Positions 5,532 to 33,571 of a DNA stretch of 35,570 bases are shown piece by piece. The stretch covers positions 1 through 35,570 of the forward strand of contig JAMPGZ010000001.1 in assembly GCA_023663655.1 (NCBI GenBank), in the 5' to 3' direction. Below the pieces are notes generated by a model, which was given only the letters and a program-made list of their open reading frames with translations, did not search any database and had not been told where the DNA came from. The translations under genes were made by a program, and so were the position numbers. How positions within the stretch are numbered: position 1 is the first letter of the stretch; each line of letters begins with the position of its first letter. The stretch is from Lachnospiraceae bacterium. GTDB lineage: Bacteria; Bacteroidota; Bacteroidia; Bacteroidales; Muribaculaceae.

Positions 5532-6425
5532 ATGGCAAATATCCTCAAAGTCAACAAACCGGGAGATTACCTCTCTCATGTAGGTGCCGAAAGCCGGCAT
5601 CCGCTGATTGGTGTCATTGAATTTGATAAAATCTCTCCGATACCTCAAAGCCTGAATAACTATGGGGTATATGGATTGTTCATGCACACGAATATCCCCA
5701 ATGACCTAACTTATGGATGCGGGAAATACGACTATAAGAGTGGCACCCTTATATGTGTGGCTCCCGGTCAGATCGGAGGCAGGGAAGATCGGGGTGATTT
5801 AATTGAGATTGACGGGTGGGCATTATTATTCCACCCCGACTTAATCAAAGGCTCACACTTGGAAAAGGATATACGGGATTTTTCATTCTTTGACTATCAG
5901 GTTAATGAAGCCTTGCACATGTCGGATGATGAAAGAAATATCATTGCTTCCATCATGCGCCATATACAGACGGAGATTGAAAGCGGTAATGATACCTTGC
6001 AGAAGAATATACTTATAGGATATATTGATGCGATGTTGAACTACTGTCAACGGTTCTACAACCGCCAGTTCAGTATGCGGCAAGCAGAGAACTCAGATAT
6101 TCTGACACGTTTCAATGCTCTCTTGTCGGAATATTTTGAGGCCGGTATGCAGATAGATAAAGGCTTGCCCGGTGTTCAATATTTTGCTGACAAGATGAAT
6201 ATGTCGCCGAATTATTTCAGTGATGTCATAAAACGATACACGGGCGATAACGCAAGCAACATCATCCGCGAGTATGTAATGCGACTTGCGAAGAATGCGC
6301 TTAAATCATCAGGCAACATCGCACAAGTAGCATATTCCCTCGGCTTTGAATATCCACAGCATTTCACACGAATGTTCAAGAAACAAACCGGCATGACCCC
6401 GAAACAATACCTCAAAAATCAATAA
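5532..6425 (+). CDS. AraC family transcriptional regulator (redox-operon activator)
   Basis: This 297-residue protein has an N-terminal AraC sensor (about 1-190) and a C-terminal double helix-turn-helix (about 200-295): MSPNYFSDVIKRYTG in the first motif, IAQVAYSLGFEYPQHFTRMFKKQTG in the second, and MTPKQY at the end. ATG 5532 is preferred over a TTG 15 bases upstream. It is divergent from the flavodoxin/AKR operon with 180 bases between, the layout of E. coli YqhC next to yqhD and dkgA. By analogy it may sense aldehydes or electrophiles and activate the reductases; the ligand is unknown. The gene end faces tetQ, and the 160 bases between hold no convincing terminator. Confidence 0.9.
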   Translation: MANILKVNKPGDYLSHVGAESRHPLIGVIEFDKISPIPQSLNNYGVYGLFMHTNIPNDLTYGCGKYDYKSGTLICVAPGQIGGREDRGDLIEIDGWALLFHPDLIKGSHLEKDIRDFSFFDYQVNEALHMSDDERNIIASIMRHIQTEIESGNDTLQKNILIGYIDAMLNYCQRFYNRQFSMRQAENSDILTRFNALLSEYFEAGMQIDKGLPGVQYFADKMNMSPNYFSDVIKRYTGDNASNIIREYVMRLAKNALKSSGNIAQVAYSLGFEYPQHFTRMFKKQTGMTPKQYLKNQ

Positions 6426-6586
6426 ATAATTCTGGCATATTCAAATTTTAGTTTTAACTCATCTTCCTTACTCTAAGTTTCAGCAAATAGGTCCAATTGT
6501 TATACTACGCTTTGAAATGTAGGGAGGAATGGAGATAAGCATATATCCCAACCATATTGACGTATAGAAATTTCCTGACCGCTCCG

Positions 6587-8512
6587 TTATTTTGATGACA
6601 TTGATTTTTGAAACATGAATAAAAGTTTGTCTTTTTCGTTCATACAAATATTATCAGAATAACCGCCTTTTGTTATTTGATACCCACATGGCTTAACCAT
6701 AAAAACGCCTAAGCCCTTAGTGTATGAACTTACTTCTGAGGCATAGTCTTTACTTGTATTTAATGGAACTTTCCCTTTAATATGACACCACTCATTATTA
6801 CAACTGATCTCTTCAATCTCAGACATCATTTTTTGCAAATCTGTAATAGCTTTGGAACTCGCCACCTGGGGTATCTGCAACTCAAAATAGAGCATCGGTT
6901 CGAGAATGTCCACATCTGACTGTTGCAAAGCCAGTCTGAAGACATAAGGGGTCAATTGCCTAAAATCAGCAGGTGTACTTACTGGGCTATAATACTCGGC
7001 TTGAGTAAAAGTTACTTTCAGATCTGTCACTTCCCATCCATGTAATCCCGATTGGCAAGACATACGAATCCCTTCAAAAACGGCATTTTGAAAAGAATGG
7101 TTCAGATAACCATAGGAGATGTCACTTTCGATTTGCAACCCTGTCCCTAACGGTAAGGGTTCAAGAGTCAGCCCTATTGTGGCCCAATAAGGGTTGGGTG
7201 GCACTTCGATCTGAATAATCTTATTGACCTTTTTTACAGGTCGTTCTTTGTAGATAGTCTTGATCTCATCAAAATGGACCTTGACGGAAAATCGTTCCTC
7301 CAGCAATGTCTGTATGATTTCCTTTTGGGTCAAACCATATAACGAGATTTCCAATTCATCACTATATGAGTTTATGGAAAAGGACAAAGACGGGTCTTCA
7401 ATCCACAATGTATTTAGAGCGGATATCAACTTGCTTCTCTCTTCGGGCTTGTCTGGTCGGACGGAGGATTTGAGAGCGGGATGCTGATGAGATAAACCTT
7501 GAATCAAACAAGGTTCAGCACCTAAATAATCTCCGATTCGAAAATCTTCCATATCTTCTACAATCGCAATATCATTGGCTCCCACTTCATCAACATTTAT
7601 CTCTCTGCCCTGATAAATAGTTTTCAGATTTTTAATCTTGATGAATTTTTCCGAGTCATTGATTCTTACAACATCTCGAAGTCTCAGACTTCCGTCAATT
7701 ATTTTTAGAAAACTTCTTTTATGTCCTTTGGGGTCATGCTCTATCTTATAGAGATAAGCTGACAGTCTGTTTGAGACTGATGCCGGAGGAAGTATAAAAG
7801 AAGAGATGGCGTCTAACAACTCATTGATACCGATATTGAACATTGCTGATCCATGTAGCACCGGATAGACTTTGGCTTTTGCCACAAGAGCGATTATCGT
7901 ATTCCAATAATCAGCCGGTGAAATTTCGCTATCCGCCAAATATCGTTCTAATATATTGTCGTCATGGTTGCATACAAATTCTTTGTATTCTTCCTTTATA
8001 TATGTTTGGGAGCAAATCGGATAAACCAATCCATCGACAACAGTTTGCATAAACAGGACATCTTGCGACAGATTTGTTTTTATATCCAGATACAAACGCT
8101 CCAAATTCACACCGGCACGGTCAATTTTATTGATAAATATAATTGTCGGGATTTGCAGCTTTTGTAAAGTATTGAACAGCAACTTTGTTTGCGCTTGTAT
8201 GCCTTCCTTTGCGGATAAGATGAGGACTGCTCCATCAAGCATTTTGAATGTCCGCTCCACTTCCGCAATAAAATCCATGTGTCCCGGAGTGTCAATGATA
8301 TTGCATTTCACACCATTCCAGATAATAGATGTCGTAGAAGCCCGAACAGTAATTCCTCTACGTTTCTCTATATCCATAGAGTCTGTTATGGTGTCGCCAT
8401 TATCCACACACCCACACTTTTCCGTTGCTCCACTGGCAAACAGCAGATTCTCGGTTACGGAAGTTTTTCCTGCATCAATGTGAGCAAGAATTCCTAAATT
8501 TATAATATTCAT
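6587..8512 (-). CDS. tetQ: Tet(Q) tetracycline resistance ribosomal protection protein
   Basis: At 641 residues the length equals canonical Tet(Q), and the sequence matches it from memory apart from a few scattered substitutions. It is an EF-G-like GTPase that releases tetracycline from the ribosome. The P-loop AHIDAGKT is at 10-17, RRGITV (switch I) at 51-56, DTPGH (switch II) at 74-78 and NKID at 128-131. The EF-G-like domains follow, ending in [12 protein letters not shown] 8512 is chosen; a TTG 12 bases upstream is not needed. In CTnDOT-type elements tetQ is followed by rteA and rteB, but here only 161 bases separate its stop from the convergent AraC gene. No frameshift is visible, so it should be functional. 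Confidence 0.97.
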
Positions 8513-8538
8513 TTGATTAAGCAATAATATACTACATT

Positions 8539-11223: not shown

Positions 11224-11382
11224 TCAATACATTCTCGAAGCATCAAACACATTGTCGGGGTCATGTGCCGCCAGATCATCCGTCGGTTTTCCGAATAAAT
11301 GTCGAAGCGTCACGGCAATGCCATCGTTGATTGCAAGACTTTCGCCGGCAATCTCCTTCGGGATTATCGCGTATTTGGGATT
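11224..11382 (-). pseudogene. Sirtuin (SirTM-like), 3' fragment
   Basis: The last 52 codons of this frame (NPKYAIIPKEIAGESLAIND through FDASRMY) align without gaps to the last 52 residues of the intact sirtuin at 27764-28660, with 29 identities by hand count, including the identical stretch AIIPKEIA. Upstream of 11382 the similarity ends and the frame continues into unrelated AT-rich DNA, including a (TA) run near 11430. The Rossmann and catalytic parts are missing. At 56% identity it is a fragment of a different homologue, not a recent copy of the intact gene. Confidence 0.8.
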
Positions 11383-11498: not shown

Positions 11499-12422
11499 TC
11501 AAGAAAAGCCCTCTCTATTCATCTCCTCAATATAAGATGAGATTGTTTTGCCAGTCTGCTGTTTGAAAAAACGCATGAGATGGTTAGGTGCGGAAAATCC
11601 CAATTTCAATGCTATCTCCTTTACGGGCAATCCGGAAAACAAAAGGTCGCTCTTCACTTCCTGAAGGAGCCTTTGCTTGAGAAGATGCACGGCAGTGACA
11701 CCAAACTCATTCTCTACAGCCTTGTTAAGTGCCACGCGACTTATGCCTATCATTGCCGCATAGTCATTTACCCTCTGCTTTTTACGGATATTCTTTTCGA
11801 GAAGCTCCTTATAAACGAAAGCGAAGTTATTGACCGGCATACGCATTGATAGATTAAACCGGGCGGCATAATACCGGTTGAGCCGCAGGAGAAATTCGTA
11901 AAGCACAGCCACAATCATGTGATAGCTGTCGGCAATAGGATTGAGCAGTTCCTGTTTTATTTTGCCGAGTGTGTCAGTAAAATTCAGGATCTCCTGTTCC
12001 GGCATCCGGAAATAGGTCGGATGCTCATTCTGATAGCAATACAGCAAGCGGTACATGAATTGCTTATCAGATATGAAATTATATATGAACTCTTCCTGAA
12101 AAATAAGAAATGTGTAGTCAAGATCGGCAATATCAGCATGCCATTCCTGCCGTTGGTAAGGAGATATTATCAATAAACTATTGTCTGTCAGTTGATGTTT
12201 CTCTCCATTGACTATAACATAACCGTTGGCTTTGCGGAAAAAGAAAAACTCAAAGAAGTCGGTCTTATAGTTGCTGTACAGATTAAACCAGCTTTCACGC
12301 TCTGAGCTTTCCGCCGTATTGAGCAGAAAGTCAACACCACACGCGCTTTTAGAGTATCTCAGCAATGATATGTGCTCCTCTTTGGGCGAAGAGTATATGC
12401 CTACCCTATTTTTCTTTTCCAT
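11499..12422 (-). CDS. AraC family transcriptional regulator
   Basis: This 307-residue protein has an N-terminal cupin-like sensor (about 1-190, with GYVIVNGEKHQLTDNSLLIISP) and a C-terminal AraC DNA-binding domain (about 210-300: RVNDYAAMIGISRVALNKAVENEFG for the first helix-turn-helix and PVKEIALKLGFSAPNHLMRFF for the second, ending in KQQTGKTISSY). Bacteroidales regulators of this shape usually control a neighbouring operon. The nearest candidates are the NTF2-like gene upstream and the radical SAM remnant, all on the same strand. The effector is unknown. Confidence 0.88.
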   Translation of the reverse strand: MEKKNRVGIYSSPKEEHISLLRYSKSACGVDFLLNTAESSERESWFNLYSNYKTDFFEFFFFRKANGYVIVNGEKHQLTDNSLLIISPYQRQEWHADIADLDYTFLIFQEEFIYNFISDKQFMYRLLYCYQNEHPTYFRMPEQEILNFTDTLGKIKQELLNPIADSYHMIVAVLYEFLLRLNRYYAARFNLSMRMPVNNFAFVYKELLEKNIRKKQRVNDYAAMIGISRVALNKAVENEFGVTAVHLLKQRLLQEVKSDLLFSGLPVKEIALKLGFSAPNHLMRFFKQQTGKTISSYIEEMNREGFS

Positions 12423-22135: not shown

Positions 22136-24070
22136 TTGACAAAATCAGTCCTCGTCCTATTAATGTGCATTTCATTCTCTGTCGCAAGCAATGCTCAAAG
22201 AGTGGTGTGCGATGAAACCTGCAAAATAGAGTTTCAACATCCGTCAGGAGAAATGGACTCCGCCCAAACAGCAATTACCAATGAAGTCAATTATGCAGTG
22301 GTTTCACCTGTAGGACGCAGTACGGTCAAGATGATCGATATGGCTCCACGACTGTCATCTCTCGATGGAAAGACCATTGCGGTGGTAGGAGGAAGTTTCA
22401 TGGCATCAATAACCCATCCTGAAATAAAAAAACTTATTTTAGAGAATTATCCTACAGCAAAAGTTCTTGTGCTCGATGAGATAGGTTCAGCAGGTGTTTA
22501 TCCTGCTCCGGGCATAACTCGCAGAAACAAGGACGAGTTTCAGAAAAAGCTGCTGGAAGCAGGTGTCGATGCGGTCATTTCCGGAAACTGCGGTTGCGGA
22601 CTATGCACACCTAAAGAGGTCGGATCCTGCATTGCTGCCGAGTATGTCGGTGTGCCGGCTGTTGCAATTGCCGCTCCGGGATTCGTGAAGGAGGTCTACT
22701 ACACCTCAATCAACAATGGAGTACCGGCACCCCGTGTTGCTGAATACCCCGGCGCGTTTACAACCCATACCCGGGAGGAGTTAATAAAGAACACAAGAGA
22801 AATTCTTTGGAATCAGATTGTGAAAGGACTCACAAAGCCTATAACCGAAGAAGAGATTAATGCTAATTCGACACGTGAAAAAGGCGATGTCCGCGACGAT
22901 GTCTTTTATGGAACAATGCAGGAGATCAATGAGCATTTCCGGGAAATGAAGTGGTCCGACGGATTGCCTATCGTACCGCCTACTTATGATGCCGTGAATG
23001 AATTTCTTAAATATACCGATCAGAATTGGGATGAAACAGTTGCAGTATTACCGGTGGCACATCGCAACACAATGATATGGCACGTCGCTGTCAACGGAGT
23101 CATGGCGGGCTGCAAGCCTGAATATATGCCTATTTTAATAGCCATGACCAAAGCACTCGGCGCTCCGGAGTTCCGCCGCACTTTAGCAAGCACTCATGGC
23201 TGGATACCCTACAGTTGGCTAAACGGACCGGTTGCACGGCAACTCGGCATTTCATCCGGTCAAGGTGAGATTTCAGAAGATGCCAACATGATGCTTGGAC
23301 GCTTCATGAACCTTGCGTTAATGAATCTTGCCGGATATTATGTAGGCGATAATCGAATGGGCACCTTCGGATATCCTCAACCTTGGTGTATGGCAGAAGA
23401 TGAAAAAGCCTGCATCGAAATAGGGTGGCAACCATATCATGTGTCAAAAGGATATGGTATTAACGACAATACTATCACATTATCATCTTCACTTATGTGG
23501 GGCAACAATATGGCTCCATCCACAACAAATCCGCACAAAATCATGGAGTTGATGGCATGGGACATTGCCGAAAGATGCCAGTTCGCTCTTGGAAGTGGCA
23601 AGCAGTACACAAACCGCACAATACTGATGACACCATCTGTCGCACGCAACCTTGCCAAAGGTTATAAGTCACAGGAGGATTTGGAAAAAGACCTCATCAT
23701 TTCATCTCGACGTCCGTTGAATGAACGCGTGATCGCAAACTACTATGCCAACCCGGGCAGCAATCCGGAGGAAAAGCACCCGATAAATCATTGGATAAGA
23801 CACATCTCTCGCTGTGAAAATGCAGAAAATACGGCACCTCCGGTCTGGTATGACACCGATTCAGAAACAATGATGACAATCCCAACCATGAAAGCGGAAA
23901 TGACAGTATTTCTCGTGACCGGTGATGATAGCCGAAATAAAATACAGACAATGCCGGGAGGAGGATATGCAACCGTAAAAATTGAGTTGCTTCGTGAATG
24001 GGACACATTGACCCGAGCCCTTGGATACAACCCTATTCATGAATACTTTAACGCAAGCTCGATACGGTGA
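22136..24070 (+). CDS. UGSC family protein (cysteine homologue), exported
   Basis: This 644-residue protein has a signal peptide (MTKSVLVLLMCISFSVASNA; TTG start at 22136, in frame with ATG 22163). Residues 50-240 form a UGSC domain: VVSPVGRSTVKMIDMAPRL, then GKTIAVVGGSFMA, and GNCGCGLCTPKEVG, where Cys154-Gly-Leu-Cys157 takes the place of the family's Sec-Gly-Ser-Cys motif. The second half (about 260-640), starting MKWSDGLPIVPPT, is an uncharacterised domain often attached to UGSC. The family is thought to be redox-active; no substrate is known. Export suggests an envelope role. The Sel1 operon is transcribed divergently. Confidence 0.75.
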   Translation: MTKSVLVLLMCISFSVASNAQRVVCDETCKIEFQHPSGEMDSAQTAITNEVNYAVVSPVGRSTVKMIDMAPRLSSLDGKTIAVVGGSFMASITHPEIKKLILENYPTAKVLVLDEIGSAGVYPAPGITRRNKDEFQKKLLEAGVDAVISGNCGCGLCTPKEVGSCIAAEYVGVPAVAIAAPGFVKEVYYTSINNGVPAPRVAEYPGAFTTHTREELIKNTREILWNQIVKGLTKPITEEEINANSTREKGDVRDDVFYGTMQEINEHFREMKWSDGLPIVPPTYDAVNEFLKYTDQNWDETVAVLPVAHRNTMIWHVAVNGVMAGCKPEYMPILIAMTKALGAPEFRRTLASTHGWIPYSWLNGPVARQLGISSGQGEISEDANMMLGRFMNLALMNLAGYYVGDNRMGTFGYPQPWCMAEDEKACIEIGWQPYHVSKGYGINDNTITLSSSLMWGNNMAPSTTNPHKIMELMAWDIAERCQFALGSGKQYTNRTILMTPSVARNLAKGYKSQEDLEKDLIISSRRPLNERVIANYYANPGSNPEEKHPINHWIRHISRCENAENTAPPVWYDTDSETMMTIPTMKAEMTVFLVTGDDSRNKIQTMPGGGYATVKIELLREWDTLTRALGYNPIHEYFNASSIR

Positions 24071-25768: not shown

Positions 25769-27679
25769 ATGAATAGGAAACAACGTAATATGCTTACCCG
25801 CATCATAATCGCTCTGATTATGACGATAGGGTTGCTTTTTATTGACATTACAGGATGGCTTCGCCTCGCGCTGTATCTCGTGGTGTACCTGATAATAGGT
25901 TATGACATACTGAAAAAGGCATGGCTCGGTATTATCCACGGCAGGGTGTTTGATGAAAATTTCCTTATGGCTGTGGCAACGGTCGGAGCCTTCGCACTTG
26001 CCATCTATGAGAAAAGCGGCGACTATCTCGAAGCCATCGCCGTTATGCTGTTCTATCAGATCGGCGAGTTCTTCCAAAGCTATGCCGTAGGTAAAAGCCG
26101 TCGCAACATCGCGGCGCTGATGGATATACGCCCCGACTATGCCAACATTGAGCAGGATGGCAAGATTGTGAAGGTTGACCCGGATGACGTGGAGGTCGGT
26201 CAGACAATCATAATCCAGCCCGGAGAGAGGGTGCCAATTGACGGAATTATCATTTCAGGCGAATCATCGCTCAACACTTCAGCACTGACCGGCGAATCAC
26301 TCCCTCGCGAAGTTTCCTCAGGAGATGAAGTGATAAGCGGCAGCATCAATATGTCGGGGGTACTGAAAGTACGCACCACCAAAGAGTTCGGCGATTCTAC
26401 AGTATCCAAGATTTTAGAGTTGGTGGAGGATTCAGCCTCACGCAAGTCAAAGTCAGAGAATTTCATCGCGAAATTCGCCCGGGTATATACCCCCGCAGTG
26501 TGCTATGGAGCATTGGCACTTGCCCTGCTGCCCCCGCTGTTCCTCATCCTGTTCAACGGAGCGCCCGTGAGTTTCGCCACTTTTGAAACATGGGTTTACC
26601 GTGCATTAGTGTTCCTTGTCATAAGCTGTCCCTGTGCGTTGGTTGTCAGCATACCGCTGTCGTTCTTCGCCGGAATCGGCGGTGCAAGCCGCGAGGGTGT
26701 GCTTGTGAAGGGCGCCAATATTCTTGAAACACTGTCAAAAGTAAAAACGGTAGTATTTGACAAGACCGGTACGCTGACAAAAGGCGTGTTTGAGGTCAAT
26801 GCCTATCACGGCGATCACGACCAGGATATAGCTGACCGCAAAGCGCAATTGCTTGAATATGCGGCGATAGTGGAGTCATCTTCTTCCCACCCGATAGCAA
26901 AATCATTACAACAGGCGTACGGCCACACGATTGACCGCAGCCGCATGAGCGATGTAAAAGAGATCAGCGGCAAAGGCATCACAGCCGTTATTGACGGCAA
27001 GAAGGTCGCCGCCGGCAATGAGAAACTTATGCAGGACCTGAGGTTGACTCCATGCCATTGCAAGACGGCAGGAACTATTGTCCACCTCGCCATCAACGGT
27101 AAATATGCCGGGCACATAGTCCTTGGAGATGTCGTTAAACCCACATCAGAACGAGCTATCAAGGATCTACACAAGTCGGGCGTGACACAGACCGTCATGC
27201 TGACCGGAGATGCCCGCGCAGTGGCTGATCAGACTGCCGCCCGTCTTGGAATAGACACCGTTTACAGCGAACTTCTCCCGGCTGACAAAGTTTCACAACT
27301 GGAACGCATTCTTGCCGGCTCGAAAGGTGATGCAAAGGTTGCATTTGTCGGCGACGGCATAAACGATGCTCCCGTGCTCTCCCGCGCCGACCTCGGCATA
27401 GCGATGGGCGCGATGGGAAGCGATGCCGCCATCGAAGCCGCCGACGTAGTGCTCATGGACGACGACCCGATGAAAATCGGCAAGGCAATCCGCATTTCAC
27501 GCAAGTGCCTGAAAATAGTGTGGGAAAACATCATCATGGCTTTAGGCATCAAAGGCGTTTGTCTTGTGCTCGGTGTGTTTGGCATCGTCAATATGTGGCT
27601 CGCCATATTTGCCGACGTAGGCGTGATGATACTCGCCGTGCTCAACGCCATAAGAGCCATGTATGTACGCAAGATATGA
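25769..27679 (+). CDS. P1B-type heavy-metal translocating ATPase (Zn/Cd type)
   Basis: This 636-residue membrane pump has all P-type motifs: TGES at 174-177, the metal-binding CPC at 287-289, phosphorylated Asp331 in DKTGTLT, HP at 374-375, and GDGIND at 528-533. Lys595 and Asp616 (ADVG) in the last two membrane helices, with CPC, are the P1B-2 pattern that selects Zn, Cd or Pb. There is no HMA or His-rich N-terminal domain; translation starts only about 10 residues before the first helix, and the HMA protein is encoded 68 bases upstream. It should export metal from the cytoplasm. Confidence 0.95.
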   Translation: MNRKQRNMLTRIIIALIMTIGLLFIDITGWLRLALYLVVYLIIGYDILKKAWLGIIHGRVFDENFLMAVATVGAFALAIYEKSGDYLEAIAVMLFYQIGEFFQSYAVGKSRRNIAALMDIRPDYANIEQDGKIVKVDPDDVEVGQTIIIQPGERVPIDGIIISGESSLNTSALTGESLPREVSSGDEVISGSINMSGVLKVRTTKEFGDSTVSKILELVEDSASRKSKSENFIAKFARVYTPAVCYGALALALLPPLFLILFNGAPVSFATFETWVYRALVFLVISCPCALVVSIPLSFFAGIGGASREGVLVKGANILETLSKVKTVVFDKTGTLTKGVFEVNAYHGDHDQDIADRKAQLLEYAAIVESSSSHPIAKSLQQAYGHTIDRSRMSDVKEISGKGITAVIDGKKVAAGNEKLMQDLRLTPCHCKTAGTIVHLAINGKYAGHIVLGDVVKPTSERAIKDLHKSGVTQTVMLTGDARAVADQTAARLGIDTVYSELLPADKVSQLERILAGSKGDAKVAFVGDGINDAPVLSRADLGIAMGAMGSDAAIEAADVVLMDDDPMKIGKAIRISRKCLKIVWENIIMALGIKGVCLVLGVFGIVNMWLAIFADVGVMILAVLNAIRAMYVRKI

Positions 27680-27688
27680 TAATGTTAA

Positions 27689-27742
27689 AGGTCTGATGGA
27701 AACATCGGACCTTAGATTATCGTTGTTAGAATACCCAACAAC
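27689..27742 (+). promoter_or_regulatory. Two hairpins between ATPase and sirtuin genes
   Basis: AAGGTCTGATG-GAAA-CATCGGACCTT (27689-27714; one G-T pair, GNRA loop) and GTTGTT/AACAAC (27722-27742). No U-run follows, so these are more likely RNA-stability or processing elements than a terminator. Confidence 0.5.
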
Positions 27743-27763: not shown

Positions 27764-28660
27764 ATGAACGACAAGATTGAAATTCTTAAACAGAAAATAA
27801 ATGAGGCTGACGCCATTGTTGTCGGCACTGCTTCAGGGATGTCTGCGGCAAGCGGACTCAGATTTTATTATCAGGATGATGACGATTATAAGAAAATAGC
27901 CGGAGGACTCCGTGAAAAATATGGTGTAAACAATCTATTTGACGCCTACTATAACCCACGTCTCAGCAATGAGGAGCATTGGGCATTGCTGTTGCGCACC
28001 ATCAAACATCTCTATGAGGTTGAAACCGGAGAGACATACGTGGATCTGAAAGAGATTCTTGAAGGCAAGAACTATTACATCGTGACTACCAATCAGGATG
28101 CACAGTTGTTCAGGCTGTTTCCTGCCGACAAAATCACACGCCTACAAGGCGATTCGCGCTACTTCCAGTGCAAGAGACGCTGCCACGATGCCATATATTA
28201 CAACAAGGATATAGTCTATGACCTTGTTGAAAAAATAGAGGGTGACCGTCTTCCGTCAAAATATATCCCCAAATGCCCAAAGTGCGGTGGCGAAATGGCG
28301 GATTGGGTACGTTCCCGTGAATTTCTCCAAGGGAGGGAATATGAGAAGGAAATGGAACGCTACATGGACTATCTGCGTGCCAACATGAACAAAAAAGTGC
28401 TGTTCCTTGAACTTGGTGTCGGCATGATGACCCCAATGTTCATCAAGGAACCGTTCATGAACATGACATATCAATGGCATGATGCGTTCTATATAACCAT
28501 CAATCCAAAACACGCTATTATCCCAAAGGAGATCGCCAACAAAAGCCTTGCCATCGACGAAGACATCGCAGTTGTGCTCAAAGAGGTGTTGGACAAACCG
28601 ACCGAACACCTCAAACAGAATGACAAAGGTGAGATTTTCGACTCAAGCAGAATATATTGA
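27764..28660 (+). CDS. SIR2 family NAD-dependent protein, SirTM-like
   Basis: This 298-residue protein has a sirtuin fold. The NAD-binding start is ADAIVVGTASGMSAASGLRF. Instead of the usual catalytic HG it has TTNQD (Asn110, Asp112) and LQGD (Gln128), the catalytic pattern of SirTM (class M) sirtuins, which ADP-ribosylate rather than deacetylate. Cys136, Cys140, Cys171 and Cys174 form a zinc site. The C-terminal AIIPKEIANKSLAI block is shared with the fragment at 11224-11382. Known SirTM operons contain a macrodomain and lipoylation genes; here the partners are a second sirtuin and an HD protein. Confidence 0.82.
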   Translation: MNDKIEILKQKINEADAIVVGTASGMSAASGLRFYYQDDDDYKKIAGGLREKYGVNNLFDAYYNPRLSNEEHWALLLRTIKHLYEVETGETYVDLKEILEGKNYYIVTTNQDAQLFRLFPADKITRLQGDSRYFQCKRRCHDAIYYNKDIVYDLVEKIEGDRLPSKYIPKCPKCGGEMADWVRSREFLQGREYEKEMERYMDYLRANMNKKVLFLELGVGMMTPMFIKEPFMNMTYQWHDAFYITINPKHAIIPKEIANKSLAIDEDIAVVLKEVLDKPTEHLKQNDKGEIFDSSRIY

Positions 28661-28662
28661 TT

Positions 28663-29340
28663 ATGGCAACTGAAATAGAAAAAGCAAAAAAGCTGATAGC
28701 CGGCGCTGACGCGTTGCTCATCGGAGCGAGCAACGGACTTTCGATTGCCGAAGGTTACAACATCTTTGCCGACAATGAGATGTTTCGCCGGGACTTCGGC
28801 GAATTCCGTAACCGCTTTGGCATACGAAGTGTGCTCGACGGTCTGTTCTTCCGGTATCCGACTCCGGCTGAACGCCACGCCTTTCTCTCAAAATTGGTCA
28901 AGGACTGGGTGACTGACTACCGTCCATCGGAAGTGATGAAGAACTTGCTGGCGATTGTCGGCGGCAAGGATTATTTTATTGTGACAACCAACGGCGATAC
29001 CCATCTTGAGGAATCAGGTTTCGACCCCGACAAAGTATTTGAGCTTGAAGGCACATTTGTCCAAGTCCTTGAGGGAAAACCTATCGCCGACAAATCAGAT
29101 GAATTAAATTTATTCATTTCAAAATACTGCGGGAAGAAACTCGTAGTTCTTGAACTTGGCATAGGAAGCCGAAACCGTATGATCAAAGAACCTTTGATGG
29201 GTCTCGTGGCTCAGAATCCCACAATGTCATACATAACGCTTAATCTGCCACATGAAATATATATTCCATCGCAGATTGCCGACCGTTCCGTTGCATTGAC
29301 CGGAGATATTGCTGACACGCTTAAACAGTTGCGACAATGA
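28663..29340 (+). CDS. Second SIR2-like protein, diverged
   Basis: This 225-residue paralogue begins ADALLIGASNGLSIAEGYNI, keeping the NAD-binding frame, and TTNGD (Asn110, Asp112). It lacks the zinc cysteines, is about 70 residues shorter, and has ELEG where the first protein has LQGD, so the catalytic Gln is replaced by Glu129. It retains LELGIGSRNRMIKEP and ends in ALTGDIADTLKQLRQ. It starts 2 bases after the stop of the first sirtuin and overlaps the HD gene by 4 bases. It may be a regulatory pseudo-enzyme or bind another nucleotide. Confidence 0.8.
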   Translation: MATEIEKAKKLIAGADALLIGASNGLSIAEGYNIFADNEMFRRDFGEFRNRFGIRSVLDGLFFRYPTPAERHAFLSKLVKDWVTDYRPSEVMKNLLAIVGGKDYFIVTTNGDTHLEESGFDPDKVFELEGTFVQVLEGKPIADKSDELNLFISKYCGKKLVVLELGIGSRNRMIKEPLMGLVAQNPTMSYITLNLPHEIYIPSQIADRSVALTGDIADTLKQLRQ

Positions 29341-29930
29341 AAGTTCCACAGAAAGAGATAGACGGATTATCGCCCATTGTAAAAGACCTGTTTTTGCAAT
29401 GGCGCGATTTTCTGTATAACAGGGTCAAATTCAATATGCCCGACAGCGAGATTCATGCCGCAGGACACTGCGAGCGTGTACTGCTCTATGCACTGATTAT
29501 CGGGCATGAGATTTTCGGCGACAACCCGTATGTGCTGACTGCCCTTGCCCATGCCTCGGTATTTCACGACACACGCCGACAGGACGATTATCTTGACACC
29601 GGTCATGGCGCAAGAGCCGCCGTTTACTATAAACAGTTCTGCGATGAATCGCCGGATATCGATTTCATTCCTGAAGCCCGGTTGATGATGAAATACCACG
29701 ACATCGAGGATAAGCGTGGAAAGGTGGGCATAAAGCATGATTTTCAAGGCTCACTGCCTCGTATGTTAAAGCTCTACGACATTTTCAAGGATGCCGACGC
29801 GCTTGACCGTTGGCGGCTTGGTCATGGCGGACTTGATCCAAGATATCTCCGCACCGAACGGGCAAAGACTATGGTGGAATACAGCCGCAGAATAGTCACT
29901 GAAACTATGCCGTTTATAACACCGGATTGA
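29337..29930 (+). CDS. HD-domain phosphohydrolase
   Basis: This 197-residue protein has an HD metal-dependent phosphohydrolase fold: His44 in AAGHCERV, His77-Asp78 in VFHDTRR, and Asp152 in FKDADALDRW. HD enzymes hydrolyse nucleotides or signalling phosphates. The ATGA overlap with the sirtuin before it implies translational coupling. In an operon with NAD-using sirtuins, a role on ADP-ribose-related or nucleotide products is plausible but inferred. It converges on the BNR gene, 15 bases apart, with no terminator between. Confidence 0.88.
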   Translation: MKVPQKEIDGLSPIVKDLFLQWRDFLYNRVKFNMPDSEIHAAGHCERVLLYALIIGHEIFGDNPYVLTALAHASVFHDTRRQDDYLDTGHGARAAVYYKQFCDESPDIDFIPEARLMMKYHDIEDKRGKVGIKHDFQGSLPRMLKLYDIFKDADALDRWRLGHGGLDPRYLRTERAKTMVEYSRRIVTETMPFITPD

Positions 29931-29945
29931 AGATTACCAAAAAAC

Positions 29946-31235
29946 TCAAAATGGTGTGGCTGAATACTCGATTATGTGTATCGGTTTAGGCAGGGAAGAG
30001 GTCACCTTTTCGCCATCGCCCTGAGATGTCTTCTGCACATAGACATTCATGATTCCACGCTCCCGCCAAAGTTTCTCGTCCACATTAGGCTCCCAAGCAT
30101 CAACGTCATAGTCAGTCAGGTCGGTCATAGTCCATACTGAATCTCCATGAGCCCTTACTCCGATTGATGCCCTGCTTCCACGCTCAACATCGCGGAAAAT
30201 GAAGTATGTGTTGCTACCGTCGGAAAGGATCTGAGGCCGGGAGACAGGTATCATTTTCGTTCCACCTCCCGACAACGAAAAAGGCGTGTGCCGCTTCCCG
30301 ACAGATTCCATCCTCCACTTCTCTCCGTCATATTCAACAAGACGGAACTGCGGCACGGAATCCTCCTTATCCCGCCAGTATGTAGCGATCATAGGGCGAC
30401 CGTCAGGTGTAGCCGCCATCGAGGTCTGATTGATTAATTCTGAACTCTGAGGCACTCCCCATGCCAATTCAGCAGTGGATGCTGTGATGGGCAACTCATA
30501 TTTTGTTCCGTCACTACGCATCCAGGTTTTCCCGCCATCGCGTGATTGGGCGTAACATAAATCATGATTAGTTTCAACCATCCATGTCTCTCTCCACACC
30601 CAGGAAAGATGAATGGTGCCCTGCATATCGACACACATCTGCCAGTAAGCATTTCTTTCCCCCTCTCCGTCAATCAAGACATCATGCATCCTGTGCCATT
30701 TCCTTTCCGATGGATCATAGCGGTTGAGGACCATATTGCCCCCTCCTGAATAGCCTGAGCGATAAACGAAGAGCATCGAACCGTCAGGAAAAGTGTGGAA
30801 CACGGGGTATGTGACATCATTTTCATCAATTCCGGTCATCGGTTCCAAGCTGCCGAGCTCAAGACTTCCGGGTGAAATGGAACGACAGTACTTCAGGGGC
30901 GAACCATGATGGTCAAATGCCACATGGAGCACACCGGAACCATCCACTCCTATTGAAATGCCGTTATGCGCGTCTCTCACATTTCCTTTATATGCCGAAC
31001 GGCGCAGCTCCCAATTGTCATCACCATGAACTCTTCGTCCGATAGTCACATATCCTTCCGGATCATAAAAAGCCACATACTGATAATCTTCATAAGTCGT
31101 AAGGGCACACCCCCTGAATATTGTGGTGTTGACCGAAGTGGCGCTGTATCCATCGGCAACATACGACATATTTATCCGCCCCGACGACAACAGCGGCAGA
31201 ACTGCCACAAGAACGATTATAAATCCACGCATCAT
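29946..31235 (-). CDS. BNR-repeat protein (BNR_4 family), secreted
   Basis: This 429-residue protein has a signal peptide (MMRGFIIVLVAVLPLLSSG) and a beta-propeller. YAQSRDGGKTW is an Asp-box (BNR) motif; other features are NVRDAHNGISIGVDGSG, VLHVAFDHHGSPLKYCRS and YWRDKEDSVPQFRLVEY. The BNR_4 family includes polysaccharide lyases and related sugar-binding enzymes next to GH105 genes. It is 8 bases after the GH105-DUF2264 gene and therefore in one operon. A lyase producing unsaturated uronic ends, removed by GH105, is a sensible pairing, but the lyase activity is not proven. Confidence 0.8.
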   Translation of the reverse strand: MMRGFIIVLVAVLPLLSSGRINMSYVADGYSATSVNTTIFRGCALTTYEDYQYVAFYDPEGYVTIGRRVHGDDNWELRRSAYKGNVRDAHNGISIGVDGSGVLHVAFDHHGSPLKYCRSISPGSLELGSLEPMTGIDENDVTYPVFHTFPDGSMLFVYRSGYSGGGNMVLNRYDPSERKWHRMHDVLIDGEGERNAYWQMCVDMQGTIHLSWVWRETWMVETNHDLCYAQSRDGGKTWMRSDGTKYELPITASTAELAWGVPQSSELINQTSMAATPDGRPMIATYWRDKEDSVPQFRLVEYDGEKWRMESVGKRHTPFSLSGGGTKMIPVSRPQILSDGSNTYFIFRDVERGSRASIGVRAHGDSVWTMTDLTDYDVDAWEPNVDEKLWRERGIMNVYVQKTSQGDGEKVTSSLPKPIHIIEYSATPF

Positions 31236-31243
31236 CTGTCATC

Positions 31244-33571
31244 TCAAAATAGGTCACGGAATTTCTCTCCTTCTCCCCAATGATGGTCCTTAGGAAACGG
31301 TTCTCCTCCCCATGCTTTGCATGAGGTCCAAGGCTGCGGCGCATCAGTCCAGAATGGATGCGTTGCCGGCAATCCGAGTGGAAGAAATGCGAGCGATGTC
31401 ATGTAGAGCGACCCATTATTAGTGTACCTGTCAGCTACATTAGGCTGGCGACCGGAAAAACCGATAGTAAGAAATCCTCCTTCATTAAAATTCTCTTTCC
31501 CGTCAAACATCCTGTGCATCGCTGCCGTCAAGGCTGCCCGCACCTGACCGTTAGAAACGCCTGCCGGTAGAGTCTCATACCATGCCATGAGCGCGAGCGG
31601 CTGCATGGTAGCCATACGGTAAGGAATCGAGCGGCCAAACACAGGGAATGTGCCTTCGGGTGAAATCATCCGCTCCAACACAAGCGAATACTTCTGCGCG
31701 CGCTTCAACGCCCTGTCGTAATAATTGACATAATGTATGCGTGTGCGTGCTTTTGAATCCTTCATCGCCTGGAGAGTTTCAAGATACATCGGGTGGAACA
31801 CGTAGCTGCTGTAGTAATCAAATGCAAAATCCGGACCGTCGGCATACCATCCGTCACCGGTGTACCACTCCTCAACCTTGCGTATAGCCGAATTCACCCG
31901 ATATTGATCGTATGACGCGCCTGCCTTTGCAAGAAAGCTCTCTATGGTCGATGAAAACAGCACCCAGTTGGTGTAGGGCGGATCCACCCTCCTCATTCCG
32001 GTGAACTCTTCGATATAACGCTGCTTAGTCTCATCATCAAGGGGCATCCACAATGCATCATAGCCACGCAGGAATGACTCGGCTATATATGCCGCATCAA
32101 CCAAAGCCTGACCCTCACCTTTCCATAAAAGATAGTCGGGGCTGTTCTTGTCTACGGCATTTCTATAACTTTTCAACGCCATTTCACGCAATTCCTTACG
32201 TAGTTTTCCTTCCGGAGTGTCATCGTCGGGGAGAGACAGCCAAGGCGCTATTCCCGCCATGAGTCTGCCGAAAGCCTCCATATAGGTCACACGCTTGTTA
32301 CGCCCGTCCCAATTTGGACTCACTTCTACCAGCATTTCCTTTTGAAGCCGCCCTTCCGACATTTTAGAGAGCACCGGCAGTGCCATCTTTTCGGCAAGTG
32401 ACACCCAGTATGCGCGGTCGCCATTGCCGACACCCTCAAGATGACGCACATATTCGCAAGCAGCAAGCAGAAATGCACCGGTTCCGAAATTGGACGTAGA
32501 CTTGGCATCCACCCTTTGTCCGGGTATAGCTTTTTCTCCGATGGGCTGCACATAGCCCACAGAACCATCTTTCTGCAACGCGACACTGCTCAGGTAATCC
32601 CAGCCTTTCAATGCTGCGTCAAGATATTTTTCATCATTTAGATAGCCATTGTTGATTCCCCACAGCAAGCCATAGGTAAAGAATGCCGTCCCGCTTGTCT
32701 CATATCCGGGCGCATGTTCGGCATCAAGCATCGAACGAGTCCAGTATCCTTCCGGCTGCTGACTTGCCACAACAGCATCAGCGAGCCTGCGGTATTTCTT
32801 AATAAAAAAATCACGGTGGCGATATTCCTTCGGCAAGTCCTTAAGCACTTTCGCAAGACCGGCAAGCACCCATCCGTCACCTCTTGCCCAGAAATCTTTC
32901 TTGCCATTCTCGCTCTTATGATTTGGATACACATATTTTGCATCGCGGTAATACAATCCAGTATCGTCATCAAGCATGATGGAATCACTGTAACATACGT
33001 ATTCATACAGTTTGTCAAGATATGACTTGTTACCGGTTATTTTATACAGTTTAGTCATCACGGGCATAACCATATAAAGCCCGTCAGCCCACCACCAGTA
33101 ATCATTGCGCGGAGTGGACATCTCATACTCCATCACCTCACGGGCACGCTTTATCCGTCGGTCATCTGGAAGGATATTATACAGGTCGGCATAGGTCTGA
33201 AAACATATCTGCCAGTCGCCGAAAAGCACATGGTCATCAGTCTCTCCATAATCAAGGCGCCACTTCTTTCGGTCATTACTTTTAGCGCCCTTCCATTTAT
33301 TGTGTTCAGCCCAATGCTCGGAATAGTCTCTCCATTTACTGTTGCCGGTGAGAAAATATGCCTCCATATTACCGGTATGATATGCCGCATTATCCCAGAA
33401 CGCATTTGTTTCCGGAGAATGTTCAGCCTGCCACTTGTCATTGACCTTGGCTATCATTGCCCTGACCTTGGCAGAATCATCATTTTTATTCTTTGCCGCA
33501 CATGGCAATGATGACAAAAGCACAACAAATACAGCGATAATTGCTTCGTAAATTAATCTGCGATGTTTCAT
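31244..33571 (-). CDS. GH105-DUF2264 fusion, secreted
   Basis: This 775-residue protein starts with a signal peptide ending near LPCAAK. Residues about 35-385 are an alpha/alpha-barrel GH105 domain: WWWADGLYMVMPVM with the catalytic Asp, KDFWARGDGWVLAGLAKVL, YETSGTAFFTYGLLWGINNG and SNFGTGAFLLAACEYV. Residues about 395-770 are DUF2264: NPNWDGRNKRVT-like YMEAFGRLMAGIAPW, then WFYTDG-like WYTGDGWYADGPDFAFDYY and PYRMATMQPLALMA. GH105 removes unsaturated uronic acid from lyase products. DUF2264 enzymes are linked to uronic-acid glycosidases. Together they suggest rhamnogalacturonan- or ulvan-like oligosaccharide breakdown in the periplasm. Confidence 0.88.
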   Translation of the reverse strand: MKHRRLIYEAIIAVFVVLLSSLPCAAKNKNDDSAKVRAMIAKVNDKWQAEHSPETNAFWDNAAYHTGNMEAYFLTGNSKWRDYSEHWAEHNKWKGAKSNDRKKWRLDYGETDDHVLFGDWQICFQTYADLYNILPDDRRIKRAREVMEYEMSTPRNDYWWWADGLYMVMPVMTKLYKITGNKSYLDKLYEYVCYSDSIMLDDDTGLYYRDAKYVYPNHKSENGKKDFWARGDGWVLAGLAKVLKDLPKEYRHRDFFIKKYRRLADAVVASQQPEGYWTRSMLDAEHAPGYETSGTAFFTYGLLWGINNGYLNDEKYLDAALKGWDYLSSVALQKDGSVGYVQPIGEKAIPGQRVDAKSTSNFGTGAFLLAACEYVRHLEGVGNGDRAYWVSLAEKMALPVLSKMSEGRLQKEMLVEVSPNWDGRNKRVTYMEAFGRLMAGIAPWLSLPDDDTPEGKLRKELREMALKSYRNAVDKNSPDYLLWKGEGQALVDAAYIAESFLRGYDALWMPLDDETKQRYIEEFTGMRRVDPPYTNWVLFSSTIESFLAKAGASYDQYRVNSAIRKVEEWYTGDGWYADGPDFAFDYYSSYVFHPMYLETLQAMKDSKARTRIHYVNYYDRALKRAQKYSLVLERMISPEGTFPVFGRSIPYRMATMQPLALMAWYETLPAGVSNGQVRAALTAAMHRMFDGKENFNEGGFLTIGFSGRQPNVADRYTNNGSLYMTSLAFLPLGLPATHPFWTDAPQPWTSCKAWGGEPFPKDHHWGEGEKFRDLF

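Follow-up and report, generated by a model that had tools for sequence, protein, structure and literature searches.

The window analysed here, a stretch of 35,570 nucleotides from a 2.9 Mb genome whose closest loci and relatives are Bacteroidales, carries three consecutive same-strand open reading frames, placed exactly where an earlier note on this DNA had put them. The first (27764..28660, +), assigned from its ORF and by homology, encodes a SirTM-type sirtuin of 298 residues, hereafter S1; the second (28663..29340, +), recognised by its ORF and a family profile, encodes S2, a paralogous sirtuin of 225 residues that lacks the zinc ribbon; and the third (29337..29930, +), identified by its ORF and family alignment, encodes an HD-superfamily protein of 197 residues, with which the operon ends. 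The reported spacing of 2 bases between the two paralogs holds with the ATG start of S2, a TTG start at 28657 being open as well, and the 4-base overlap of the HD gene with S2 is confirmed from the ORF coordinates. Upstream, a ZntA-like Zn/Cd-type P-type ATPase gene (25769..27679, +) neighbours the pair and ends 84 bases before S1. Folding of this gap, which has a z-score of -4.65 over its whole 84 bases, places an 11-bp hairpin at 27688..27713 (+), which we infer probably ends the pump transcript; the terminator scan did not list it, and the promoter and terminator scan as a whole was uninformative.

Elsewhere in the window, the remnant of a second SirTM (11227..11382, −) preserves 52 C-terminal residues with 56% identity to S1 and is probably a decayed second copy. 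It lies just downstream of the gene for an AraC-type regulator (11499..12422, −), whose family also accompanies the pair in other Bacteroidales. The window further holds a Tet(Q)-type ribosomal protection gene (6587-8524, −; NCBIfam tet_protect_Q, 1513.6 bits, above cut-off), a 644-residue ORF (22136-24070, +) with an N-terminal match to the UGSC family (PF24696, E 1e-14) and, downstream of the HD gene (29946-33571, −), genes for a BNR_4 protein and a two-domain GH88-DUF2264 protein, both probably serving polysaccharide use. An ordinary Sir2, present in single copy, is encoded 26 kb farther on the same contig.

Active sites of the two sirtuins and the HD protein

S1 matches the Streptococcus pyogenes SirTM structure (PDB 5a3a) at E 5.4e-41 across 267 residues and the fungal macrodomain-SirTM 8rsn at E 2.5e-16. 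When residues are mapped onto SpySirTM, with their roles taken from PMC4518038, N110, D112, Q128 and R183 of the window's S1 coincide with SpySirTM N118, D120, Q137 and R192, all four of which are kept in 72/72 S1 sequences, and the zinc-ribbon cysteines fall at positions 136, 140, 171 and 174. The catalytic site thus reads QG in place of HG (Q137 in 72/72 S1 and in 7/9 members of S1b, a further sirtuin clade introduced below), and the earlier assignment of the first sirtuin to the SirTM type by its Asn/Asp/Gln pattern agrees with both the pattern and the 5a3a match. Other positions depart from the published enzyme: all 72 have Gln in place of SpySirTM Ala119 and one of M, L, I or V at position 233, and the pyrophosphate motif of the window's S1 is GVGMMTP, not the published GVGx[NT]TP. 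Class M SirTMs are protein ADP-ribosyltransferases that do not deacylate, an activity that S1 may share. A single in-frame stop interrupts S1 in one locus (L052).

S2 on its own gave no Pfam or NCBIfam match; a profile of 31 family members matches 5a3a at E 3.5e-40, and the window's S2 is 31% identical to its S1 over the N-terminal part and 38% over the C-terminal part. Its active site consists of N110, D112, H114 and E129, the last being a Gln-to-Glu change, and a counterpart of R192 is absent. Across the family, N118, Glu137, His122 and Asn34 (SpySirTM numbering) are invariant in 85/85 sequences, while position 120 is D in 48 and E in 37. Arg occurs at position 192 in 0/85, this position being a gap or loosely aligned in the 44/85 sequences from which the whole zinc-ribbon stretch is missing. 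S2 therefore has neither the QG motif nor the Arg192 by which class M is recognised, and the invariant Glu137 and His122 give it a third type of active site, distinct from both the His type of deacylases and the Gln type of SirTM. Judged by its residues, the S2 site is unlike that of the other sirtuins compared in this analysis, and the earlier description of both proteins as SirTM-like holds for S1 but overlooks the deviating, invariant site of S2, which is Asn/Asp/Glu rather than Asn/Asp/Gln.

The window's HD protein alone was matched by no Pfam HD model, and PF01966 recognises 9/17 aligned family members, the window's protein not among them. The H...HD...D metal-binding pattern of the superfamily is nevertheless present (H44, H77, D78 and D152 in 17/17) and H90 and H121 are invariant in the same 17 sequences, a set of residues that suggests what we take to be a two-metal HD enzyme. 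The family profile found nothing significant in the PDB, the best match being a 'predicted HD superfamily hydrolase' at E 0.11. Relatives occur in 25 of the 295 Bacteroidales genomes searched, 23 of these 25 having only a distant form that scores 41-74 bits against 342-350 bits in two pair-bearing genomes, and the 10 loci of HD relatives outside the pair that were viewed by eye (1.5 kb flank) show other kinds of neighbours. Among pair loci, the HD gene is broken into two ORFs in L051 and short (90 aa) in L081, and in L078 (6967-8088) an HD domain (PF01966, 1.8e-6) is fused to an isochorismatase domain (PF00857, 9.4e-22) and followed by PncB.

Distribution, pairing and phylogeny

Scanning genome contigs with an S2 alignment yielded 264 confirmed relatives; the counts below refer to the best 80, all of which were examined. 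By record title these comprise 43 Bacillota, 35 Bacteroidota, one Thermodesulfobacteriota and one Pseudomonadota. The title of one contig (L038, Staphylococcus sp.) is doubtful and probably wrong, since its sirtuins are 88-90% identical to those of the Bacteroidales window. The unit occurs in gut and soil bacteria well beyond the window genome, with pair members in gut Bacteroidales and Clostridia. An ORF for S1 was identified in 68/80 loci, lying at a gap of at most 100 bp from S2 in 58 of the 68 and of more than 590 bp in eight of the other ten. The order is S1-S2 in 53, S2-S1 in seven and S1-S1b-S2 in seven (L081, L082, L091, L092, L096, L099, L105), the S1b proteins of these three-sirtuin rows forming a clade of their own; the one further locus (L101) has the pair plus an extra ordinary SirTM. 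Nine of the 12 loci without an S1 ORF contain 1.4 kb or less of sequence before S2 (L049, L053, L070, L074, L080, L102, L103, L107, L115), and a fragment of S1 is visible in six of these nine; of the remaining three, L052 has the S1 with the in-frame stop noted above, and L073 and L079 have S2 by itself. An HD gene is found in 19/80 loci, and in 18 of them it follows S2 immediately, at -13 to +35 bp. The order and pairing of the genes far exceed what chance would give, and the three-gene order, whose conservation apart from the metal genes the earlier note had proposed as a check, is kept in distant genomes, mostly without metal genes.

The two sirtuins also co-vary: their distance matrices correlate at r 0.73 over 72 loci, a value reached in 0/2000 permutations, and within phyla at 0.74 (Bacteroidota, n 30) and 0.60 (Bacillota, n 36). 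In a phylogeny built with FastTree from 186 sirtuins, among them 81 S1 (including nine S1b) and 85 S2, S1 and S2 form sister clades whose union has a support of 1.0. A single sirtuin from the window's order (L036) joins the S1 clade, and the macrodomain-linked SirTMs, SpySirTM included, fall outside S1 and S2. The root branch is long, and by this tree the pair may have originated either within the macrodomain-linked SirTMs or apart from them. Plasmid-borne versions exist as well: two Bacillota plasmids have the order S1-S2-HD-PncB-isochorismatase, and on Lactobacillaceae plasmids (L027 5082-7254, L144 5908-8182) S1 is accompanied by a C-terminally extended S2, the extension in L027 matching Cupin_5. 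A Mesobacillus plasmid (L025) bears two S1-like fragments (6088-6433 and 7503-7605, +) upstream of an intact pair, perhaps a decayed extra copy.

Macrodomain, lipoate and NAD-recycling genes around the pair

Zinc-macrodomain queries matched only 1/80 S2 loci, L101, where the macrodomain sits with the additional ordinary SirTM. Among 18 single-sirtuin loci obtained from the sirtuin searches (L014-L019, L028, L030-L037, L139, L154, L155), by comparison, a macrodomain lies beside the sirtuin in 11; of the seven others, one is L036, placed with S1b in the tree, and six are distant proteins of 26-28% identity, viewed with about 1.5 kb of flank only. This set leaves out G286 (among 15 other sirtuin-bearing genomes) and some single-sirtuin plasmid matches, and five loci with a macrodomain (L140-L143, L145) were left uncounted because three of them had been annotated with one before the choice was made. 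Within the window's genus, two genomes (G300 and G306; loci L154 and L155) have a sirtuin plus macrodomain, and in the window's own genome PF01661 found no match at E 0.01. Queries for GcvH-L, LplA and LLM gave 0 matches in the 80 S2 loci, and in five loci outside the 80 only LLM matched, partially, in L026. The earlier note had remarked that macrodomain and lipoate genes are absent from the window's operon, and this is borne out. A lipoyl target was considered and rejected, the window genome's one GcvH match lying on another contig and no GcvH-L or LplA being near any pair.

PncA-like genes occur in 7/80 S2 loci and PncB genes in 7/80 (five of one type, two of another), so that one or the other is present in 9/80, six of these with HD too, and in two plasmid loci besides; a weak and partial PncB-like stretch upstream in L144 was dropped from the PncB count. 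With neither gene in 71/80 loci and no HD in 61/80, some loci being cut by contig ends, these are optional parts. In four Bacteroidales loci (L041, L051, L057, L074) they form a run S2-HD-PncA-PncB-Fic, preceded by S1 in three and cut at the contig end in the fourth; L041 also has a split PncA and a GNAT-like gene between its two sirtuins. PncB genes of some relatives' operons exceed the curated cut-off. For the PncA-like proteins of L038, L044, L051 and L057 the only or best match is PRK11609, at 54.6-79.5 bits and thus below its cut-off of 174, a model that finds matches in 12 of 14 control genomes and passes its cut-off in one; the Paenibacillus isochorismatase is likewise a weak nicotinamidase match (40.9 bits). 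In the window genome, pncA and pncB lie side by side on another contig (G000:C25:5531-7269), its PncB being 76% identical to that of L039. The closest relatives, L038 and L039, share with the window the HMA and pump genes that precede the pair, the pump gene being split into two ORFs in L038, and continue with S1-S2-PncA in L038 and S1-S2-HD-PncB in L039, whereas in G299, of the same genus, the pump (94%) is directly followed by PncA (84% to that of L038), with no sirtuin pair. These differences suggest that individual parts of the cassette come and go one at a time.

Further neighbours recur around the pair. A Fic gene is found in 17/80 S2 loci (16 Bacteroidales), directly after S2 or farther along (L043, L045, L046, L047, L060, L064, L069 and others), and the Fic-family gene of L047 carries HPFIDGNGRVGR. 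Restricted to Bacteroidales are an MBL hydrolase (17/80, at varied distances) and an AraC regulator near the pair (26/80). Rrf2 regulators occur in 26 of the 80 loci, TetR regulators in 16 and a CDF zinc transporter in 4, and a GNAT-like gene adjoins S2 in 5/80, the TetR and GNAT neighbours having been named by eye. TIR, HerA, SLOG and Argonaute are not among the recurrent neighbours that were identified.

Discussion

SirTM modifies GcvH-L with ADP-ribose taken from NAD+, a transfer that the operon's macrodomain reverses, according to the sections of PMC4518038 and PMC11490716 drawn on here, the latter of which also presents GcvH-L as the only known SirTM protein target and the role of other systems as open. 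The pair resembles the minimal SirTM-macrodomain operon treated in the same sections: S1 shares homology along most of its length and keeps Asn, Asp, Gln and Arg, both are tight two-gene operons, and Rrf2 regulators lie near some of each. It differs in having S2 where the other has a macrodomain, and GVGMMTP and a separate, supported clade where the other has GVGx[NT]TP. With the extended SirTM operon (GcvH-L, LplA2, Macro, LLM, OYE) it shares a SirTM-type writer, but not the lipoate-linked genes sought in the S2 loci. Finally, the PncB and PncA-like genes in some relatives' operons are also those of NAD salvage by the Preiss-Handler route, which here is joined to NAD-consuming sirtuins and HD, the window's own pncA-pncB being encoded apart.

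Here the GcvH-L target and the macrodomain eraser are both missing. The simplest account is an NAD-consuming module in which S1 would be the writer and S2 a second enzyme; S2 might remove the mark, set one elsewhere or simply assist S1. In its full form, a paired-sirtuin ADP-ribosylation module with S2 in the macrodomain's place and nicotinamide recycled, we judge this account to be poised about evenly between right and wrong. The module is observed as gene order, homology, active-site patterns, macrodomain exclusivity and neighbours, and its chemical steps would run as follows. S1 would bind NAD+, transfer ADP-ribose to a target, either a protein or a small molecule, and free nicotinamide. 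S2, which may have arisen by duplication of S1's ancestor and then had its active site rebuilt (Gln replaced by Glu, a His added, the Arg partner lost), would replace as an active partner the macrodomain of ordinary SirTM loci, acting on the product of S1 or on NAD+ itself. The HD protein might hydrolyse a nucleotide product of the ADP-ribose type, and the putative nicotinamidase and the nicotinate phosphoribosyltransferase, located in the same operon in some relatives and elsewhere in the window genome, would return nicotinamide to NAD+. In related bacteria the place of the pair is taken by a sirtuin and an ADP-ribose eraser, and this contrast suggests that ADP-ribosylation is run here in a new way.

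It is possible, if somewhat unlikely, that S2 is a regulatory or structural partner instead, S1 and S2 forming a heteromer in which only S1 turns over NAD+, an arrangement somewhat like that reported for the FAM118A/FAM118B sirtuin pair. The tight pairing and co-variation of S1 and S2 would fit such a partnership, as would the loss of the zinc ribbon in about half of S2 sequences and of Arg192 in all of them, whereas the four invariant S2 residues (N118, E137, H122, N34) are unexpected for a dead subunit and S2 occurs without S1 in two loci. A more specific form of the active-enzyme reading, which we regard as unlikely, makes S2 a sirtuin-fold eraser, an ADP-ribosyl hydrolase that uses Glu and His and has displaced the macrodomain, with S1 writing and HD, nicotinamidase and PncB recycling the products.

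Decidedly less probable is a reading as an NADase toxin or a unit directed against phage, whose sirtuins would deplete NAD+ when triggered, with HD or S2 as the brake. Conflict systems of many kinds employ sirtuin domains, and SirTM-Macro has been likened to toxin-antitoxin systems, as described in part of PMC9503650, whose defence sirtuin effectors (ThsA, Sir2-HerA) share with the pair the sirtuin fold and a link to NAD. The patchy distribution (S2 proper in 1/14 genomes of the window's genus) and carriage by Lactobacillaceae plasmids fit as well. Against this, S1, S2 and HD of the window have no PADLOC match, the HD family meets among defence models only two weak Cas3g models, matched by 1/17 members each, and the regulators (AraC, Rrf2, TetR) and NAD-salvage genes linked to the pair suggest a metabolic setting. 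A phage origin was likewise rejected, scans of viral contigs with S2, HD and S1 having given no confirmed relatives; S1 does have matches in two records from phage collections, one at 32% along 97% of the query and the other at 45% along 26%. The earlier proposal of an NAD- or ADP-ribose-based unit or a defence unit is supported for NAD turnover, by the neighbours in some relatives, and not for defence.

The earlier note had also drawn the metal exporter into the unit, which finds no support here. A metal-stress unit acting with the upstream Zn/Cd pump is very unlikely: the pump is no more than 1.5 kb away from the unit in the window and in L038, L039, L064, L093 and L117, and the CDF transporter beside or near S2 could be read in the same sense, but a strong hairpin separates pump from S1, a pump-type ATPase occurs within about 8 kb in 10/80 loci only (a raw count, without a background rate) and does not belong to the unit in most relatives, and in G299 the pump occurs without any sirtuin pair. 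Metal resistance was accordingly rejected as the main function, and the pump is probably a mere neighbour. That the pair are duplicated ordinary protein deacylases, as the annotation of some relatives (NAD-dependent protein deacetylase) would have it, is scarcely credible, the catalytic His of 4 deacylase-type outgroup sequences being Gln in 72/72 S1 and Glu in 85/85 S2 and the Gln137-to-His change abolishing transfer by SpySirTM, as stated in the relevant section of PMC4518038.

Overall, the interpretation given in the earlier note is partly supported. In the open-access literature, searched by titles and abstract openings with preprints and most subscription papers outside its reach, we found no description of a sirtuin pair of this kind. 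As far as these searches extend, the unit is a real, widespread and apparently undescribed variant of SirTM systems, whose biochemistry we infer from its genes. Some of the pair-bearing gut Bacteroidales and Clostridia genera are presumably genetically tractable. SirTM biology is known from macrodomain operons, and the paired clade offers a clean test on two counts: what sirtuins can do chemically apart from deacylation and SirTM transfer, and whether the reversal of ADP-ribosylation proceeds without a macrodomain.
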